Positions 19,184 to 63,078 of a stretch of 64,000 nt of DNA are shown here, piece by piece. This DNA comes from Owenia fusiformis (Eukaryota; Annelida; Polychaeta; Sabellida; Oweniidae), in contig CAIIXF020000008.1 in assembly GCA_903813345.2 (NCBI GenBank), forward strand, positions 2,241,341 to 2,305,340, in the 5' to 3' direction. Below the pieces are notes generated by a model that made no database searches, was not told the origin of the DNA, and worked only from the letters and a program-made list of their open reading frames with translations. The translations under genes were made by a program, and so were the position numbers. How positions within the stretch are numbered: position 1 is the first letter of the stretch; each line of letters opens with the position of its first letter.

Positions 19184-19249
19184 GGGACACAAGCCAGCAT
19201 AACATAATTAGAGTCTGTGAACCCATATTACATGAGTTATGTCCATTGT

Positions 19250-19760
19250 CCATGCAAAAGTGAGATTGACCTGGGTGTAGGAGTCACAGGGAACCTAAAA
19301 ATGGGGTCACACATAAGAACAATAGCAAAGAAAGCCAACAGTATCCTTGGTATAATTAGAAAAAGTTTTGAATATTTAATCCCAGACACTATGACTCAGC
19401 TATATAAAGCATTAGTCAGACCAAGACTTGAATATGGAGCGACAATTTGGTCCCCTTACCAGATAGACGACATTGAAACTCTAGAGAGGGTGCAGAAACG
19501 AGCTAAAAAAATAATACCAGGATTCAACAACATGGAATATCCAGATAGATTGAAGAAATTGAAATTGACAACCCTGGCCTTTAGGGAGAAAACGAGGTGA
19601 CATGATCGAGACATATAAGCTTATGAATGGACTCTACAATATGCCAGTGGAAGGGTTAGATCAACCTAGACAATCATTGGAAAGATCACCCAATCAGATA
19701 TGATTATAAGGATGACTTCTAGTGATGTACACAACACCAATATCCATGAAAGGCCAGTAA
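19250..19760 (+). pseudogene. 5'-truncated non-LTR retrotransposon (CR1/jockey-like RT C-terminus)
   Basis: Starts inside the RT palm/thumb region with EIDLGVGVTGNL (expected 'DLGVxxxxxL'), followed by KKANSILGIIRKSF, LYKALVRPRLEYGATIWSPY, and ERVQKRAKKIIPGF: the standard order at the C-terminus of CR1/L2/jockey ORF2. A frameshift at about 19597 moves the RGDMIETYKLMNG block into another frame, and stops follow by 19700. The catalytic FADD box and the endonuclease are missing, so it is a dead 5'-truncated copy. Confidence 0.85.
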
Positions 19761-24989: not shown

Positions 24990-26270
24990 TTGCTTTATTT
25001 TAGCGATCTTTATCATAATCTCTCGAGTAACATTAACATATCATTATTGTGAAAATATGCTGTTACTTTGTTGCAAATAAGGCATTCTTGTTGGCAGGAA
25101 AAATTGCATGAAATTCCCTGGGATTTTTGACTTCTTTCATAAACTGGGACTTATTAAAATGGTCTGAAAGATGTATTTTCAATTTTCTAAACGCCCTGGC
25201 ACTAATTACAGAGAATGCGGTAACTAACTAATGAAGAATGTATATCATTGAGTTTGCATTCCACAGATAGAAATCTTAGTTAGTCTTTTGGACAGTAACC
25301 AGTTATTGATTTGAACTGTAACCTAGTGTTACAGACACTTTTGGATAGTAACTAGGTGTTACTAATGGTAATCAAAAATCAGTAATCATTTTGGACCAGT
25401 GACCGGATTACTGATTTTATGAAGTAATAGGATGTTTATCATTTGCACTGTAACCTAATACTACAGAACTTGAACTGTAATTAGGCGTTGCATCTTTTGT
25501 CCTACTGTAAGAAGTCTTAAGTTTTACTATGAGTACTTCATGTTTTGAGAAATTAGGTAAGTTTTCTTATTTTTCTCTTGATTTTGATTTATCAATTAAT
25601 TTGGACTGAGCCCAGGTTATAATGAAAACATGCGCTACGCGCTAACGCGCTAATAGAAAATGATCTTTCCCCCATGATGAGTGTTTATGATTGGTCTATA
25701 TCCTAGGCCTAGGGACATGTATACTTAGGGTTATGATTCCCTGGGAACTTGTCAAAACATTGACACTTCAAAGGCTTTAACGAAGAAATTTTCGTTTTTA
25801 ATCGCAATATTTGCTTGTGATATTTAACTTATTTCAACCGTCAAATTCCTTCATTTATTGGTACTTCCGGGCCACTTCCAGGCCAGTCAAACGGGGAATC
25901 CACTTTTAAATCCAACTGCCATCTTGAAAAGAGATGAAATCTCTCTCGATGAAAAACAAAAATGTTCCCGTTCTGCTGATAAACCCAGATAATAATTGTG
26001 GATTCAACTACACAAAAGAATACTAAATCATCATATTTAGGAGGGTGAGGTGTAATCCTGTGTTATCCTCCCTTCTGATCATTTGTTTGTTACATGACAT
26101 ATTTTTATTGGTTTTAATTTCTTTGGTATTTTATTTCCCATAGACAGTTAGTTGAGTTGATTATTTAAAGGTGACATGGACAGAATCTAGTGTAGTGTAA
26201 ACTGATCATCATAGGTCTGTGAAAATACCCAGTAACCTATTGATGTAGGTATCTTAAGTGTAAGAGGTAT
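24990..26270. other. Non-coding spacer with short imperfect repeats
   Basis: Positions 25290-25480 contain diverged copies of 'GTAACTAGGTGTTAC'-type words. No gene seen. Confidence 0.4.
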
Positions 26271-26271
26271 A

Positions 26272-27150
26272 CCTAGGTATTGACATCACAAATAACTTAC
26301 GCTGGACTACACATATTCAAACTATTGTATCCAAAGCCAATAAGGTGCTTGGATTCCTCAGGCGCAACCTCCATCAATGCCCTGAAAAAGTGAAGGCTCA
26401 GGCGTACAAGTCACTAGTCCGGCCTAATTTAGAGTATGCCAGTTTGGCATGGGATCCATACCGACAAAAAGATATTGATATGTTGGAACAGGTACAGAGA
26501 AGAGCAGCTAGGTTTGTAACCAAATGTCACTCGAGGGAACCAGGCTGCGTCACCAAAGCTCTTCAAGACCTACAGTGGGAGCCACTGAAGGAGCGTCGAG
26601 AGGCTGCTAGAGTTTTCCTCTTCTACAAAGGAAAGCAGAACCTAGCAGCCATCCACGTGCCTCCATACTTCCGCCAACAGATCAATACCAACACTAGGTT
26701 GTATCATCCTTCTAAGTTCATACAACCATCAACTAGAACGGATGCATACAAATTTAGCTATTTCCCTAGGACAATAGCTAAATGGAACACTCTACCTGAT
26801 GACATCTTAGACTGTGACAGTCTAAGTAGTTTTAAATCATCATACTATGCCTATGTCAATAACTGCAATTAAATAGGTGTATTTTTAATATAGATCCATG
26901 TTTTAATGTAAAAGGTCCCCAGTGCACAGCAACAAGCCTGCACTACTGGTAAAGAGGGGTGATGTCAACGCGGTAGCCTGACAGTCGCCCCAGGGTATTT
27001 CAACATAGTGGTAAACCATAGATCTATTTTTAAATGTTAAGGTTTTAAATTATATTCTATTCAAATTCTATCACTGTTAAATTATATATCTGCTTTATAT
27101 GGGCTTATTAGCCTTTTGCAGATTATTGACATAGACATAGACAAGAGACA
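26272..27150 (+). pseudogene. 5'-truncated non-LTR retrotransposon, RT C-terminus with 3' tail
   Basis: Reads YLGIDITNNLRWTTHI, then KANKVLGFLRRNLHQCP, SLVRPNLEYASLAWDPY and EQVQRRAARFVT, and continues without a break to the normal end of ORF2 (FPRTIAKWNTLPDDIL, then SFKSSYYAYV, stop at 26871). Only the thumb/connection end of the RT is kept; the active site and endonuclease are lost. The 3' end at about 27115-27155 carries a short ACATAG-type tandem tail like those that end CR1/L2 copies. It is a different subfamily from the copy at 19.3 kb. Confidence 0.85.
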
Positions 27151-34943: not shown

Positions 34944-37900
34944 TCATACACCTAACATGGACATCCATGAGTTAGCATAAGCCATGGGTTTCACCTTTGG
35001 ATGTGGCTGAAAGTAAAAGGATCAACATATGAGCCATAAATAGAGAAGAATGAATTCATTTTCAATAACTCAAGATATATACAGAAAGAGACATTCTCGA
35101 AGTATTTCAGCTTAATTTCAATTTTTACACATGAAAGACTAAAAATAAATTGACCATCATCAACATTTTATGTTTCCTTAACTAACCCAAGACTCATATG
35201 ATGTGTTGAAAACATGAATATGAAGAGAATTGCTACTTACAACAGCTCTGTATGATGTGAATTTTGGAGTGAGATCTCCTCCCTTGAGTGTTATGAAGGC
35301 ACCTTGGTTTCCCATAGTGTCACTGAAATAGAGAGGGAAATATGAAGTCCCACTGTGGCTCCCTCCTTTGAGGGCAAGAAGGCTCTTCTCATGATATAAA
35401 CAAATCTGGCCTATATACCTTAATTTCATTGGTTCCCTAAAAGGGGTTTGGATTTATTGAAAGGATCTATCGAATGTGAACCAACTAATAGAAGCAAAAT
35501 TGAAGTTAGTGTATTGGGAAAATCAGATATAGCATCAACTATTATTATAAAACTTACCAGTAGTTTGGCGCAGAAAACACAGTAATACATTTCCCATCAT
35601 GCATCACTTCATACCCGTCTTGTTTCACTTCATGGCTACGTATGATATAATCAAGCTGATTATGTTGTAAGAACTTTTTGGTGATATCTGGTCCAAACTG
35701 TACGCCGACACCACGCTTTGAGGGAGATCTCCCACACTGAGGCTGTGGGTCGGACCATAATAAATCACACATTATACCTGAAACAGGGGAAAAGTAATAT
35801 AAACTAAGAACTAACACACACCTCCATACGTTTGGCAACTAGATGTAAAAGCTTATCTATGTTTGATGATTTGAAAAAAATCATCAAATCTGAAGGCTTC
35901 TGGTTACTTAGGTGTATTAAAAAAGTCTCAGATATAAGTTTCAAAGATATATAATCAAAGGACAGTCATAATATATGCCAACCCCCTAGTTGTTGAAGCA
36001 GAGGTACTATATAGTTCACTTTACAGGGACTTATTAACCACACAGTGACAGAATTCAGTGAGATACGAGTAAGACAAGATTTTGAAAGAAAATACAGAAA
36101 TACAAAAATCAAATGAAATTTCTTAAATACCTGAATCTGGCGGTTGTCTGTTTCTTTCTTCTTTCCTGATATCATCTAGAGTCACATCATCCTTTGCGAA
36201 TAAGCCACCATGCATGACCTACAATAAGACATGGTTACAATAAATACATTTTCCTGATATCATATAGAGTCACATCATCCTTTGCGAATAAGCCACCATG
36301 CATGACCTACAATAAGACATGGTTACAATGAATACTTTACCTGTTACACAATCAAGAAATCTTTATACAAAGCTTTTGTTCAGGTAAAAACAGATATAGC
36401 CTGTATATATGTTGTTTCAAGTTAAGTTTCAAGAAAAACTCTAGCACAGTAAAACTTGTCTTATCGGAACCCCAGTGGAGCCAGTCAAAAGTGTTAGCAG
36501 GTGTTCATATTTCAAGGCTTTAATATTTCAGTCAATGGTAGATAAAAAATTGGAACTGAGAAAAAGTGTTTACATTGAGAAGTGTTCGGATAAGAGAGGT
36601 GTTCAGAAATACAGGTTTCACTGTAATTGCAGAAAATGCTCCAAATACATATACATATAGATTGTTTACACTTACCAGAACCTTCTTTTCTATACAGTGA
36701 CACAAGGGTAGCCAATTATAGACTTCTGTGAAGAGATCTGCCATCTGAGCATTGTACTTTGACTTCACCTCACCATCAAAGCCATACATTTGGTTCATTG
36801 TAGAACTCTCATGATTACCTGCAATAAGAAATAACATGATTGGTCAAATCCAGGTCACCTGACCATCAAAGTCATACATTTGGTTCATTGTAGAACTCTC
36901 ATGATTACCTGTAATAAGAAGTAGTATGATTGGTCAAATGCAGGTCACCTGACCATCAAAGCCATACATTTGGTTCATTGTAGAACTCTCATGATTACCT
37001 GCAAGAAGGAATAACATGATTGGTCAAATCCATGTCACCTGACCATCAAAGCCATACATTTGGTTCATTATAGAACTCTCATGATTACCTGCAATAAGGA
37101 ATAACATGATTGGTCAAATCCAGGTCACCTGACCATCAAAGCCATACATTTGGTTCATTGTTGAACTCGCATGATTACCTAAAATAAGGAATAATATGAT
37201 TGGTCAAATCTAGGTCACCAGGTTAATTTGTAGAACTCACACAATTACTTACAATAAGGAATACTGTAATATGACTGGCTGAATCCAGGTCCTAATTAAA
37301 TACGTCACTGAGAGTCACAAAACCTGGACTCATGATGGGAAAATCTAACCATCGAAGTCAACAAATGAAAAAATAACTTAAACTGTAATTCTCTGTGATA
37401 AACAGTTTCACTTACCTCTGGACATGTAAAAGTGTTTAGGGAAAAGCAGTTTGAAACCGAAGAGAGTGAAAATACACTCCACCGAGAAGGACCCCCTGTC
37501 TACGAAATCACCATTAAATAACTGAACTCTGTTAAGGAACATGTCAACTAGACACCCAATTAGATTCAATATTATTAAAGCCTGATTGTATAAAATGACG
37601 TAAGATGTGATGCATGGGGCAAGATTATAATGAATTGTGTGAAATTACAACCGCATTATTACAGATGCCAGCCAGATCGTATTTATGGAAGTAGGCTTGG
37701 CTCAATGAATAAACCTTTTTGTGACAAGGTATTATCCTTGAGCTACTGATACTACTACACAAATGATCATGCCGGCATCTGTAACACCAATGGCAAAATA
37801 TTTCTTTCCAGCCTTTCCATGTAATAAACATTCACTTCATCAACTCCCCTTTTATAGCTCCTTTAACTGATTTATTTGATGGTTTAAATTATATAAATAT

Positions 37901-49098: not shown

Positions 49099-52000
49099 GA
49101 AACAGGAATAACAAAGCAGAACATGTCATTAGTACTGTCATCCTTTAGTTCCCATTTCACAACAAGTTTCAACTGAAATGAAATGAAATAACTTGAAACA
49201 ATTTATAAATGAACATGTGTTCCTCAATGTACTTTTTGTCAAATGTAACAATATCTTGAATGTGAATAATATTTTAGTTTAATTAACTTTACAATTTACA
49301 TGTACCTTGTACAAACAATACAATAAGTTCAACTCAATTATCTGGACAAACAATATAATAAGTTTTACTCTACAATATAATACTACATGTACATAGTATT
49401 TGTTGATGGAGAGTGATATGAATATGTACTGACTATAAAAATATGGCAGTTATTGTACATAGTGTATGTATAATGCTATGCGGCTATTTGATGCAATTCC
49501 TCAGGGGAAAACTACATGGGGAACGTCATGTTATAATTCAAACTGTTGAATACAAATATTAATTTGTTCTTCTGTTTAAATTCAGTAGTGTAAATATTGA
49601 GCATTTGACTGCTTTCTTAATCTTTCAAAGATAATGACTTCATGCAGTCATGGGGATGGGCACAGCTTTTCATACACTTGGTATATTGCATCAAGTTTGA
49701 CAAAACCTTATACCAACCTTTGGGTAAGATGGGTTGACAAATAGGACATTAGAATAGGTGTTCATATCTCCCGACTTCACTGGGCACGTCACATTAGATT
49801 TACATCCATCTGGATTGGGAATAGGGAACGGCACTGGAACCCCCGCAATTATACCATGTACCACACTTGTCAAGGTTTTGCTCATGGCATCTGGAATAAA
49901 AAGGTTGGTAAAATTGTATTTAACCATGAGCTTTCTAACAGAATTCCCATGTCTTGTCTGTATATAATAAAAAATTAGTACCATGACCATTTTGACCATT
50001 TTGAAATCAGGCAAGCTTTTGAACCAGGAGTCATAAGGGAGTTTTTTGTATTGATGTTGAACAAAAATAACTTGAAACTGGAATCCTATCGACAGAGGTT
50101 TTGAGCAAATGGTCCAAAAGAGGATTTCGCGAGACAGATGGACAAATCAATGTTAACTAAAATGGCTGAAAATAAAAAAAACGGATATAATATTTTGCTG
50201 ATTTTTTGTAACAAAATTAATTCATACAACTACCTTTAACAGTGACATGGCTTTTTACAATGCAGGACAGCTGAAATTAAAGCTAAAATGTAAAGCTAGG
50301 AAATGGGCAAAAAGTGAATTTCGCGAAACAAGAATGGCAACCATTTTGAAAATAGGCGAGCTTTTGAATGGGAGAGTTTTTTGTATTGATGTTGAACAAA
50401 ATTAACTTAAAATGGGAATCCTATCGACAGAGGGTTTAAGGTAAATGGTCCAAAAGTGGATTTTGCGAGACAGATGGACAAATCAATGTTAACTAAAATG
50501 GCTGAAAATAAATAAATGGATATAATTTTTCGCTGATTTTTCGTAACAAAATTATTTCATACATCTACTCTTTACATTAATTTACATGGATTTTTACAAT
50601 GTAGGACACTTGAAATTATTTGTAAAGCTAGGAAATGGGTCAAAAGTGAATTTCGCAAGACAAAAATGGCGGCCATATTGAAAATAGGCGAGCTTTTGAA
50701 CCAGGAGTCATAGGGGAGTTTTCTGTATTGATGTTGAACAGAAATAACTTAAAACAGGAATCCTATCGACAGAGGTTTTAAAACGTGCCACAGAAAGTGG
50801 ATTTCGCGAGTCAGATAGACAAATCAATGTTAACTAAAATGGCTGAAAATAAAAAAATGGATACAATTTTTCGCTGATTTTTTGTAACAAAATTATTTCA
50901 TATATCTAATCTTTACATTGACATGGATTTTTACAATGTAGGACACCTGAAATTTTTTGTAAAGCTAGGAAATGGGCCAAAAGTGAATTTCGCGAGACAA
51001 AAGTGACCGCCATTTTGAAAATAGGCGAGCTTTTGAACCAGGAGTCATAGGGGGGTTTTCTGTATTGATGTTGAACAGAAATAACTTAAAACAGGAATCC
51101 TATCGACAGAGGTTAGCTAGGAAATGGGCTAAAAGTGAATTTCGCGAGACAAAAGTGACAGCCATTTTGAAAATAGGCGAGCTTTTGAACCAGGAGTCAT
51201 AGGGGGGTTTTCTGTATTGATGTTGAACAGAAATAACTTAAAACAGGAATCCTATCGACAGAGGTTTTAAAACGTGCCACTATTGTTGACGGACAGACGG
51301 ACGGACAGACAGACGGACGGACAGACGGACGGACGGACGTACAGACGGACGTCATTTGTTGTTGCTGCATTGGTTTCTTCATTCATTTTCTTCTTTCATT
51401 GTCTTGATTTGATTGCGATGTTACTTATCTTTCTTCAGGGTCCACAGACTTGAGACTGCGCATAGGTGGGTTAAACGTTTTGATCCGGCCGGAAAACTCT
51501 CCCCTTCCCCTTACTGTTGGTCTTATGCTGATTTGTCATCTTAGTTTACCCTCTTTGCGGAGAAGATACTGTTTCATATTCATTTGTTAATGTTCTCTTC
51601 TCTCATTAATTTTCCAGTCCTTCATGATGATATTCTCCTGCATATTGTATTTAGTACATATCCATTTATTTCTTGTTATAGCTTTCTCAGTATACGAATT
51701 TAGTATGTTGCTCCTGTAGCCTTGACATTGTAGTTTATTTCCCAGGCTGGTAACTCTGTTTGTTGCATCTTCCAGTTGACTGCAGATTCTTGAAATCCTT
51801 ATTATTTGTGATATAAATATTCCATAAGATTGGTTTCTAGGAATATTTCCAGATAGATCAGGATATGAGACTATTTGGAAATTGAAGTTTTCCCTTTTGT
51901 CGTATAGTTTTGTAGTGATTTGTTTATTTACTATTTTCATTTGTATGTCCAGAAAAGTTGTTTCTGTATCCTTCTCATTTTCCTTGTTTAACACTAGTTC

Positions 52001-54507
52001 TTCAGGATAGATGTTCTTCATATCAGTCTCCATTTCTCCGTCGTTGTTTATAGTACATAAATCATCGATGAATCTTGTAGTTTTAGCATATTTTAGTACT
52101 TTGGAGTAGTCTTCCCTATACATTTTCTCAATGGCTTGAAATTCATAACTGTATAAGTATAGGTTTGCCATATATGGCGCCGGATCGATTCCCATCGGTA
52201 TTCCAATTTTCTGTCTTAGAATTGATTTCCCTGCTTTAAAGTAGGCTGTATCCACGATGAAATCCACTAGATCATTGCACTCTCCTTTGGTATATGCCTT
52301 TTTATTATCCGCCTTTCCACCCCATTTGGCTTCATCTCCACCTACTGTTATCTTTTGGTTAGTTCCTCCTCTGAAGGCTTTATCTATCACCCATTTCAGT
52401 TTTTCCTTTATGTCAGTTAGATTAATCTTTGTGTATAGTGTAGAGAAATCATACGAGGCTATGTTTCTTGCCCCGTTCCTTAAATTTACACTTTTAATGT
52501 TATCTAACATATTTTGGTTATTGTCACTGATCCACATCCTATTGGCACCTGTATAATCCTTAATCTTCTCACAGTATCTTTTGTTAGTATATTGCACTAG
52601 TTTAAGAATTTTGGTCAGTTTTTTGGCAGCTGGTTTTACAGAACTTTTCTTTGAGCCAATGATATATCTAAATTTAATTGGCTGTTTATGCATTTTAATT
52701 GTAAGATGAATCCTTGGTATAATGTTTTGTTCTTCTCCCGGTTCAATCTTGAATTTTGTTTTCATTGTCTCTTTGATTTCCTCCACTATATCTTCTTCTC
52801 CTTTATCTTCTATCCTTTGATAGGTGTCACTCCCAATTTCCTCTTTAATCTTCTTTATGTAGTATTGTTTGCACATAAACCCAATATTATTTGCTGCCTT
52901 ATCAATAGGTACAATGGCATATTTTTCCTTGAGTTGATTGAGTTCTTCCATAGCATTATGGTCCTTTAGTGTCTGCTTTGGATTTTTAATATGTCTAAAT
53001 TTTGTATTTTGAAGTAACTCAATCTTTTGTTTAACCTTTTCCATTACAGTATTTTTCCATTCATTTAAGTATACTTTTGAAACTTTTTCATTTTTTGTCC
53101 AACTTATTGCATATTCATCTATTCCATTCTTTATTTCGTCTTTCGCTTTCCTGAAGTTAATGTTTCGTTTTTCTCTATAGCCAGGACCTTTACTAAATAG
53201 CTTTCTCAATTTTGAATTTTGTATAATCTTCAGATTTCCTGTTATGACGTGACCATGGTCTTCATCCTTAAATTCAGATGTATTACAATCACATTCTCCT
53301 GTATTGTTGCCTTCGTCGATACTTTCTGTAATCTCACTATAGTTGAACAATTTATTCCTTATTGGCTTTGTGTATATATAGACAATTCCTGGTGGTTCCT
53401 TATTTTTGATACTTGAAGGTATTGTCTTGATCACTTCTTCATCTCTTAAGATATTTGCAATGTTGATTACTTCTACTGCTTTGTTTTCAAATAGTATTTT
53501 ACAGAATTTTGTTGGTTTCTTTTTCCTATTCTTGGTCTTTAGTTCATTGTTTTTCCTAAGTTTTGGAAAAACGGACGGACAGACAGACGGACAAGTGAGT
53601 GATTGCAAAAGCTCACCATGTGAGCTAAATAAGCCCTGGAATATTCAAAATTGGTTATGAGTTATCAATATTCCAATGTTCACATTATAACAACTTGGCA
53701 TATCTGAATTAATAAAATTGAAGAACTATTGACATTTCATATCAATTTTGATTATACATGCTTTAACAAGGTAGTAATTATTCAGGAATATACAGCAAAA
53801 CTTGTATATCTGATCACCTCTGTCATCCAAACACCTCTTAATATGAACACTTTCTCATCTAATCCCTTTTTAAGAAACTGCAATGTGAACACCTGTATTC
53901 TGAACACTTGGCCGCTCTTAATTGTTGTCAAATTTGACAGGTTTTACTATACTTATTACTTATTGAACACCCTTCGTATAATGTTTACATGTAACTTACT
54001 AGCAACAAACTGCACCTTCATGGTAACATTACTGTTGTGTTTTAAAACACAGGGCTGGGCTCCACAAGGTGTCACATCCACAGACTTTATGCCTCCTGTT
54101 TTAGATCCTACAAAACATGTTAAATGGTTGAGATATTGTCAGTTAGATTTGGAAGATATTCTTTGCCTGAATGATTGTAAAGTATGATGGTTCTGAATGG
54201 TAATGGTGACATTTATGAATTATGTCCATTAATAAATTCCCTTTTTAAAAACTGTTTAATCACCATATAAACAAGGTGTATTTCAAAATGTAAGTGAAGA
54301 TTGAATTTTGATTATTTGCTATAGATTTTGTTACCCCGTCTAATACAAGGCCTCCCCCTTGAGTATGGGCATGATCTGCCTAAACATAGAAGCACATGGA
54401 TTTTGAAATTTAAATCTATGTTAATACTTACCACAATCTTTCCACACAACTGGGATTGACAGCGCCCCCAGAATTATGCAACTAAATATACAAATCCTGA
54501 GAAACAT
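49086..54507 (-). CDS. NPC2: NPC intracellular cholesterol transporter 2, 4 exons
   Basis: A secreted, lysosomal ML-domain protein that binds cholesterol and hands it to NPC1. Exons 54507-54432, 54107-54000, 49890-49718 and 49172-49086 join in frame (76+108+173+87 = 444 nt, 147 aa; human 151). Residues 1-~18 (MFLRICIFSCIILGALS) are a signal peptide. Six mature cysteines at 25, 40, 45, 91, 97 and 138 match the three family disulphides (25-138, 40-45, 91-97). Signature blocks include VVHGIIAGVPVPFPIPNPDG (71-90), CKSNVTCP and KWELKDD with FCFVIPV near the end. N-glycosylation sites: N52 and N94. Donors are GTAAGT, GTAAGT and GTTGGT (the last weak). Intron 2 is ~4.1 kb and contains a tandem repeat and an RT ORF. 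The stop codon lies in a minisatellite. Looks functional. Confidence 0.95.
49985..51285. repeat. Satellite-like tandem repeat, ~335-345 bp unit, ~3.5 copies (NPC2 intron 2)
   Basis: AGCTTTTGAACCAGGAGTCAT-type words recur at about 50012, 50356, 50688, 51025 and 51177 (spacings 344, 332, 337 and 152), with shared blocks such as AATCCTATCGACAGAGG and AATTTCGCGAGACA. The last unit is truncated by an internal deletion. The array ends at an ACGG-type microsatellite (51286-51350). Confidence 0.9.
51286..51350. repeat. ACGG/ACAG microsatellite
   Basis: GGACGGACAGACGG-type repeats for ~65 bp. A similar shorter run is at 53570-53593, at the other end of the RT ORF. Confidence 0.9.
51587..53608 (-). 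CDS. Uninterrupted reverse-transcriptase ORF (Penelope-like type)
   Basis: A 673-codon ORF without stops or frameshifts. RT motifs are in order: ASYDFSTLYTKI (about residue 385), QKIGIPMGIDPAPYMANLYL (~467) and the catalytic RFIDDL (~510), followed by TFLDIQM and TTKLYDKRENFNF. N-terminal to the RT is a conserved block with CDCN (~107), GHVITGNL and LFSKGPGYRE. This set matches a family of animal RTs widespread in marine invertebrates that I place, tentatively, near Penelope-like elements. No GIY-YIG endonuclease is seen. It copies RNA into DNA. The first ~12 codons (CPSVCPSV) are microsatellite, so the true start may be one of the later Met codons. It lies in NPC2 intron 2 on the same strand. 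Confidence 0.85.
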   Translation of the reverse strand: MQSLTCPSVCPSVFPKLRKNNELKTKNRKKKPTKFCKILFENKAVEVINIANILRDEEVIKTIPSSIKNKEPPGIVYIYTKPIRNKLFNYSEITESIDEGNNTGECDCNTSEFKDEDHGHVITGNLKIIQNSKLRKLFSKGPGYREKRNINFRKAKDEIKNGIDEYAISWTKNEKVSKVYLNEWKNTVMEKVKQKIELLQNTKFRHIKNPKQTLKDHNAMEELNQLKEKYAIVPIDKAANNIGFMCKQYYIKKIKEEIGSDTYQRIEDKGEEDIVEEIKETMKTKFKIEPGEEQNIIPRIHLTIKMHKQPIKFRYIIGSKKSSVKPAAKKLTKILKLVQYTNKRYCEKIKDYTGANRMWISDNNQNMLDNIKSVNLRNGARNIASYDFSTLYTKINLTDIKEKLKWVIDKAFRGGTNQKITVGGDEAKWGGKADNKKAYTKGECNDLVDFIVDTAYFKAGKSILRQKIGIPMGIDPAPYMANLYLYSYEFQAIEKMYREDYSKVLKYAKTTRFIDDLCTINNDGEMETDMKNIYPEELVLNKENEKDTETTFLDIQMKIVNKQITTKLYDKRENFNFQIVSYPDLSGNIPRNQSYGIFISQIIRISRICSQLEDATNRVTSLGNKLQCQGYRSNILNSYTEKAITRNKWICTKYNMQENIIMKDWKINERREH
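53793..53948. mobile_element. Pogo-like MITE in NPC2 intron 2
   Basis: CAGCAAAACTTGTATATCTG and the inverted GACAGGTTTTACTATA enclose ~155 bp with 'GAACACCT'-type words, as in the 13.8 and 36.4 kb copies. TA at the left; the right end is mutated. Confidence 0.6.
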
Positions 54508-61730: not shown

Positions 61731-61748
61731 TGAGTGTTACATGTGAGT

Positions 61749-63078
61749 ATGTATCAATATAATGCAAGTCTGAACAATGCAAACTTCAGCAATGCAAGTC
61801 TGAACAATGTACATCTGAACTATACAAGCCTACTGAACTACAACACTACTGATCTGAACAACAGCTTCAACGCTAACAAAAGCCAACTGGACAACCTGGA
61901 CTACAGTGACTATGTTACACACTTTTGGTCCCTTCACATTGTGATAAATACACTACAAATAGTTTTGATTTTATTTGGATTGATAGGAAACATTTTAGCA
62001 CTGATAGTTCTATCAAAAGACACAACAAAAAGCACACGTGTGTTTCTGCTAAAAACACTAGCTGTCACAGACTTACTTTATTTGACATGTTATACCATCT
62101 TTGCATTGCCAGGGAATTTAGAATTTAATTTTGGCTTGAATCTCAATGTGAATGTCAATTACCACAGAGCTGCAAATTGGTTTATCAACACCACTTGGAC
62201 ACTGTCAATATGGATGGTTGTCTTGGTAACAGTTGATCGATATATTCACATAGCAAAACCACTTGAAGCTACAAGTATTGCTACCATCAAACGAATGAGA
62301 GTAGCGGTGGCACTTTTGACAATATCATCCATTGTATCACACATTACAATACAGGTTGTTTGCTGTGAACCAGAACAAGAAAAAATAATGATGTTACATG
62401 TATATGGCATTTTTGCTGTCATCTTCCAATACACAGGACCAGTGATCACAGTGTCAATACTTAACTGTAAACTAGTCCAGTCTGTCCGACAATCAAGGCA
62501 GAATGTTCAACAATTGAGTGAAGCTGGGGCTGAAGACAGGAAACAAACTTTGACAATGATAGCCATTGTGTCTGTTTTCCTATTATCCTCTATTAGTCAG
62601 CTCTTATATGAAGTAATTCTTCACATAAGACATTCCAACTTATATTCCATAAATATTTCATATGATCTAATAAACTTAACAGATTTTTGCTGTCATCTTC
62701 CAATACACAGGACCAGTGATCACAGTGTCAATACTTAACTGTAAACTAGTCCAGTCTGTCCGACAATCAAGGCAGAATGTTCAACAATTGAGTGAAGCTG
62801 GGGCTGAAGACAGGAAACAAACTTTGACAATGATAGCCATTGTGTCTGTTTTCCTATTATCCTCTATTAGTCAGCTCTTATATGAAGTAATTCTTCACAT
62901 AAGACATTCCAACTTATATTCCATAAATATTTCATATGATCTAATAAACTTAACAGATACCGTATCAAACTTTTTGGTAGTTTGTAATTCATCTTGTAAT
63001 GTTATATTTTATTTTATCTTTGGGAAAACATTTAGAAGAGAATTGAAGAGAATTCTGCTGTGTAAACCAGTTACTTAA
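61749..63078 (+). pseudogene. Class A peptide-type GPCR (FMRFamide-receptor-like), single exon, broken by a 274 bp duplication
   Basis: A seven-helix receptor at the plasma membrane, probably for a neuropeptide. The N-terminus is Asn-rich with many N-x-S/T sites from a short tandem repeat (NASLNN, NFSNASLNN). TM1 has GLIGNILALIVL, TM2 LKTLAVTDLLYL, TM3 ends VTVDRYIHIAKPLEA (DRY motif), TM6 is TLTMIAIVSVFLLSSISQLL, and TM7 NFLVVCNSSCNVIFYFIFGK, with NSSCNVIFY in place of NPxxY, followed by FRRELKR; this TM7 form is typical of FMRFamide-receptor-like proteins. Sequence 62409-62682 is repeated at 62683-62956, apparently without a difference. 274 is not a multiple of 3, so the frame is lost after TM6 and ends at 62736. 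I chose the ATG at 61749; the frame opens with a GTG at 61734. AATAAA is at 63095. If the duplication is an assembly error, the gene is intact. Confidence 0.9.

Follow-up and report, generated by a model that had tools for sequence, protein, structure and literature searches.

Tandem acceptor copies before PPP5C exon 9 in the annelid Owenia fusiformis: a probable neutral boundary-spanning minisatellite

Background

In the PPP5C gene of the annelid Owenia fusiformis, exon 9 is preceded by tandem 90-bp copies of its own acceptor and its first nucleotides, and we consider it probable that this array is a neutral boundary-spanning minisatellite of the type called "mirage", in which the last acceptor is chosen by way of the true exon 9 donor. 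Many such arrays exist in this genome besides that of exon 9, and the reading of the copies as decoys is right, which suggests that splicing is able to ignore many good-looking false sites. Positions without a contig label refer to the window, namely the whole stretch of 64,000 nucleotides that was analysed.

Results

PPP5C lies on the minus strand, and its TPR and phosphatase exons run from about 39.9 to 35.0 kb, as found by tblastn with a human PPP5C query that served exon placement only. Exon 8 (37416..37521, minus strand), recognised by tblastn and by a translation ending in FYMSR, has the donor AGAG|gtaagt with its GT at 37415-37414; then follow intron 8 of 597 nt and exon 9 of 143 nt (36676..36818, minus strand, by tblastn and translation) with the donor CTG|gtaagt. 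The array before exon 9 is observed directly: TRF gives a 90-bp unit in 5.1 copies at 36765-37219, with 92% matches and a score of 784, and this array occurs a single time in the 498-Mb genome. Each unit joins some 43 nt from the end of the intron, including the acceptor, to 47 nt belonging to exon 9. By TRF and unit alignment there are four decoy units, all on the minus strand, namely c1 at 37132..37221 (TTTTAG|GTAATC), c2 at 37042..37131 (TTGCAG|GTAATC, with a T>I change), c3 at 36952..37041 (TTGCAG|GTAATC) and c4 at 36862..36951 (TTACAG|GTAATC, with a G>D change), followed on the same strand by the terminal unit at 36772..36861, which holds the real acceptor and the opening 47 nt of exon 9. 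The first exon-like base is 37178 in c1, 37088 in c2, 36998 in c3, 36908 in c4 and 36818 in the real exon. AG|GTAATC is kept in c1-c4 as well as in the real exon 9, the decoy acceptors look equal in quality to the real one, and the exon 9 ORF is intact at the 3'-end of the array (tblastn, translation). A candidate decoy donor, CAG|GTGACC, is seen after c1, c3 and c4, with CAG|GTGACA after c2.

The initial annotation had described this region as four good copies and one decayed copy of a 90-bp unit, each with an AG acceptor and about 47 nt of the exon, and had stated that all good copies keep both AG and the GNHE codons. TRF and alignment bear out the four copies with their 47 nt of exon, and AG is present in c1-c4; GNHE is retained in c2, c3 and c4 only, since c1 reads GNHA (GAG>GCG). 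The decayed copy c0 (about 37222-37291, minus strand, by reading of the sequence) does not match the description of an acceptor copy: it has AA for AG at about 37249-37250, and its exon-like part is short by about 20 nt. A second duplication in the same gene, absent from that annotation, affects the acceptor of exon 10, where an 88-bp unit is repeated in 2.1 copies at 36162-36343 (TRF, with a duplicate tblastn match). The real exon 10 lies at 36131..36218 (minus strand, tblastn and translation) and the decoy copy of 88 bp at 36256..36343 (minus strand, TRF and tblastn), which reads TTGTAG|GTCATG and has its first exon-like base at 36306.

Every mode of using the exon 9 decoys leads to a premature stop in the computed translation. 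When one decoy is included as a 50-nt exon, the stop comes 8 codons into the next unit (VIMRVLQ*), in agreement with the frameshift and early stop that had been proposed for such an exon; when an upstream acceptor is used and the exon is extended by n x 90 nt, the translation ends in ...GQVTWI*, or ...GQVTCI* for c3, with TGA as the stop. As predictions from the sequence, the earlier decoy anatomy of acceptors, candidate 50-nt exon and early stop is correct.

The surveyed exons were collected by HMM family searches for CCT, SNF-transporter and myosin-head genes, with the DNA around 90 positions taken; 146 matches had enough context, and the removal of two of them, one a decoy copy and the other a match that read through, left 144 exons, around which arrays were detected by self-comparison and TRF. 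Among these 144 other exons there are 11 boundary-spanning arrays, which belong to unrelated genes and affect both donors and acceptors, so that recurrence in the genome is a direct observation. The acceptor arrays are L013 (9 units of 83-89 bp), L018 (4 x 96 bp), L077 (61 bp x 4.5), L083 (2 x ~94 bp, diverged and 79% alike) and C10:13378697 (2 x 30 bp), and a degenerate acceptor array at L042 was left out of the 11. The donor arrays are L008 (2 x 154 bp), L007 (48 bp), L018 (105 bp), L014 (28 bp x 16.6), L071 (34 bp x 4, 100%) and C12:25400384 (35 bp). A kinesin motor exon at G000:C2:23266359-23269174 (L092, L093) gives 19 matches spaced 159 bp apart, with the real exon as the final unit and decoys that are almost identical. 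We considered whether acceptor arrays might be restricted to exons that start with GT, where decoys could be re-spliced, and rejected this rule: the first four fitted it, and L077, L083, the kinesin array and C10:13378697 did not.

Arrays of period at least 25 make up 8.9% of the 244 kb that were surveyed, and in the window their share is 8.8%. A boundary-spanning array leaves the exon intact only if the boundary sits in its terminal unit, and this holds for 9/288 boundaries (3.1%), compared with 2.3% when intronic positions are counted in the same way (p=0.32). The test is coarse, since adjacent intronic positions depend on one another and the HMM edges give the exon edges only roughly. L077 and L083 are outside the count of 9/288, therefore the true boundary rate is slightly above 3.1%. 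A cruder control, the 9.1% of intronic positions that fall anywhere in an array, was dropped because the boundary must sit in the terminal unit. The suggestion that arrays are drawn to or barred from splice sites was rejected as well, with strong attraction or avoidance excluded; the rate at boundaries is about that at intronic positions and therefore the arrays appear blind to splice sites.

With regard to selection on the decoys, the variable sites in the exon 9 array are 4/47 in the exon-like part versus 11/41 in the intron-like part (p=0.044), and those in L077 are 1/35 versus 7/22 (p=0.004). The exon-like part is not less variable in L018 or exon 10, the variability figure for L013 is inflated by an alignment indel, and a pooled test was left unused because it included the failed L083 case. 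Lower exon-like variability could mean constraint on the decoys, and it counts against the neutral reading. In the alignment of the PPP5C exon 9 units, however, selection on decoy coding content is not seen, and 3 of the 4 exon-like changes in the decoys replace an amino acid, with GNHE lost through one of them. It would be simpler to suppose that the decoys arose, not all at one time, as copies of a terminal unit with a constrained exon part, so that older and newer copies would differ in the intron part and not in the exon part, and a function of the decoys would be unneeded. In L077 most of the differences set the upstream pair of copies apart from the downstream pair; the upstream pair has a group of intron differences in common and no exon difference. 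Nothing shows any selection keeping the decoys.

Several other features were noticed in the genome and in the window. At L071 (C4:17297275, oriented 2305-2440) the 34-bp donor-array units run GT...AG, are 100% identical and follow a myosin exon ending in ACAG. At G000:C9:37986009-37994334 an N-terminal exon of the myosin head (profile positions about 27-81) occurs at least 10 times in a row, and the copies are probably alternative exons. In the window, an exact (100%) 274-bp tandem duplication at 62409-62958 lies in the open frame of a GPCR-like gene (61734-63078), whose frame is shifted since 274 is not a multiple of 3; it is a very recent event, a broken allele or an assembly error. The 262-bp repeats at 2024-2726, with a partly open frame like that of a repeat protein, are probably coding repeats or a decayed gene. 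A 685-aa open frame at 51587-53644 looks like a retroelement reverse transcriptase, and further fragments of this appearance are found at 19208-19600 and 26264-26872.

Discussion

For the exon 9 array as a neutral minisatellite, the following course may be proposed, in which the neutral origin, the selection of the acceptor by exon definition and the clearing of wrongly spliced RNA are our inferences. A segment of about 90 bp across the junction of intron 8 and exon 9 would have been duplicated in tandem towards the intron, and would then have expanded via slippage or unequal exchange. Since the complete exon 9 would remain at the 3'-end of the array, the protein would be unaffected while the last acceptor is used. 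Exon definition favours an acceptor that is paired with a downstream donor, and it probably picks the last acceptor here, because this one alone opens straight onto a complete exon whose donor, CTG|gtaagt at a distance of 143 nt, is good; as the decoy acceptors look equal to the real one, acceptor strength is unlikely to decide. The decoys would have a weak donor at most, and their use would otherwise lengthen the exon by 90-360 nt; occasional mis-splicing into a decoy would meet an early stop, and the mis-spliced RNA would be removed.

The decoys had been proposed to be either poison exons or harmless, and the latter is better supported, by 11 of 144 exons with arrays at donors and acceptors, by a rate at boundaries much like that at intronic positions and by amphioxus arrays that are reported to splice normally (PMC3087553, PMC3902484), while positive support for a poison function is lacking. 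As a poison exon, a decoy acceptor and the donor CAG|GTGACC would form a 50-nt cassette whose inclusion causes a frameshift and NMD and by which the level of PPP5C is tuned. We regard this as very improbable, although the premature stops after inclusion of a single decoy (VIMRVLQ*) and after n x 90-nt extension (TGA), together with decoy acceptors that match the real one in quality, are what it would need. The donor is without the +5 G that most strong donors of the genome have by a rough matrix; the donor-creating G>C is common to the units and is thus explained by a single event whose product was multiplied along with the array; and a comparable donor is not seen in the exon 10 decoy or in the decoys of the other acceptor arrays that were read. 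Moreover, the decoys freely change amino acids and c1 is without GNHE. An assembly artefact, with copies that are collapsed or expanded reads, has the least credit with us: array regions are indeed hard to assemble, and the copy number of the exon 9 array in the assembly may be wrong or polymorphic, but most units differ by several substitutions, unlike stutter copies, and like arrays recur in many genes of a chromosome-scale assembly.

Recursive (ratchet) splicing, which we think unlikely, takes AG|GTAATC as an acceptor and a donor-like site at once, so that each unit would be a 90-nt GT...AG segment. The exon 9 array would accordingly be a chain of 90-nt recursive steps, a self-correcting array of 3' splice sites in which joining any decoy regenerates AGAG|GTAATC and is re-spliced onward to the last acceptor, with any first choice corrected and the correct mRNA restored; such a scheme has a small chance of being right. 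It is consistent with the presence of AG|GTAATC in every one of c1-c4 and in exon 9 itself, and with exons starting with GT in 4/8 intact acceptor arrays (exon 9, exon 10, L013, L018). However, about 24% of exons in the genome start with GT, against which 4/7 gives p=0.06 and 4/8 gives p=0.10, and the arrays with other exon starts keep AG equally (L077 GC, L083 AC, kinesin AT, C10 GA). The sites GTCATG, GTTGCC and GTGTTA have very poor donor scores, GAG|GTAATC is without the +5 G, and intron 8 has just 597 nt while ratchet points are known from long introns. A ratchet point would call for a strong regenerated donor that exceeds the donor of the downstream RS-exon; by two rough matrices, the regenerated GAGGTAATC scores 2.3/2.1 versus 4.8/1.0 for CAGGTGACC, where raw scores alone are used because the donor matrix was built from score-preselected donors and its percentiles are biased.

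Taking the boundary-spanning minisatellite as the preferred reading, the single case is of moderate interest, and the main interest is in the genome taken whole, a collection of natural experiments on competition between splice sites. It offers many natural cases in which near-identical tandem splice sites compete, and rules of splice choice, such as exon definition, nearest donor and re-splicing, could be deduced from standard RNA-seq data with no need for constructs.

As for known systems, NMD-coupled poison exons introduce a premature stop when included, and the exon 9 decoys share this in the computed translation, where inclusion creates a premature stop; their donor, however, is weak. Recursive splice sites and RS-exons (PMC8605326, PMC6224609) are like the decoys in having an acceptor followed by a donor-like GT with a competing downstream donor near. 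The AG|GT of a ratchet point is found at the intronic acceptors of c1-c4; the exon 9 array differs by a short intron of 597 nt instead of a long one, by a regenerated donor that looks weak and by its origin as a tandem array, and most comparable arrays of this annelid genome are without a usable regenerated donor. In intron gain by tandem duplication of an AGGT-containing exon (PMC4974935), a duplicated AG|GT likewise gives a spliceable GT...AG segment, whereas the exon 9 duplication lies inside an existing intron and makes no new intron position.

The closest likeness is with the mirage minisatellites of amphioxus, known in the globin genes BflGb6 and BflGb9, Adh3, TnC and PGBD5 and reported not to disturb splicing (PMC3087553, PMC3902484). 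In both, exon-intron boundaries are copied in tandem with the authentic, intact boundary at the array end, and AG/GT signals are retained in many copies. The BflGb6 array is of the acceptor type like that of exon 9, with the intron 3'-end and the exon 5' part in 3-6 units, and the unit lengths of 150-160 bp in BflGb6 and of 60 and 108 bp in PGBD5 are near the 90 bp found here. The exon 9 array agrees with mirages in a unit that spans the boundary, in the authentic boundary at its end and in recurrence in several genes; it disagrees in the host, mirages being of cephalochordates, since matches to the annelid haemoglobin-linker family PF16915, a window GC of 34% and chromosome-size contigs numbered to 12 point to an annelid, and Owenia fusiformis is an annelid with 12 chromosomes (PMC9539403). 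This mismatch is a matter of taxon and not of structure, and the filing under the mirage type stands. Boundary-spanning arrays outside lancelets were not found in the literature searched, in which such minisatellites are reported from lancelets only; in the annelid they are present at 11 of 144 exons, including those of essential chaperonin and motor genes, and their frequency is measured across exons and set against intronic positions. As far as the papers found go, the exon 9 array is thus a known kind of structure in a new phylum.
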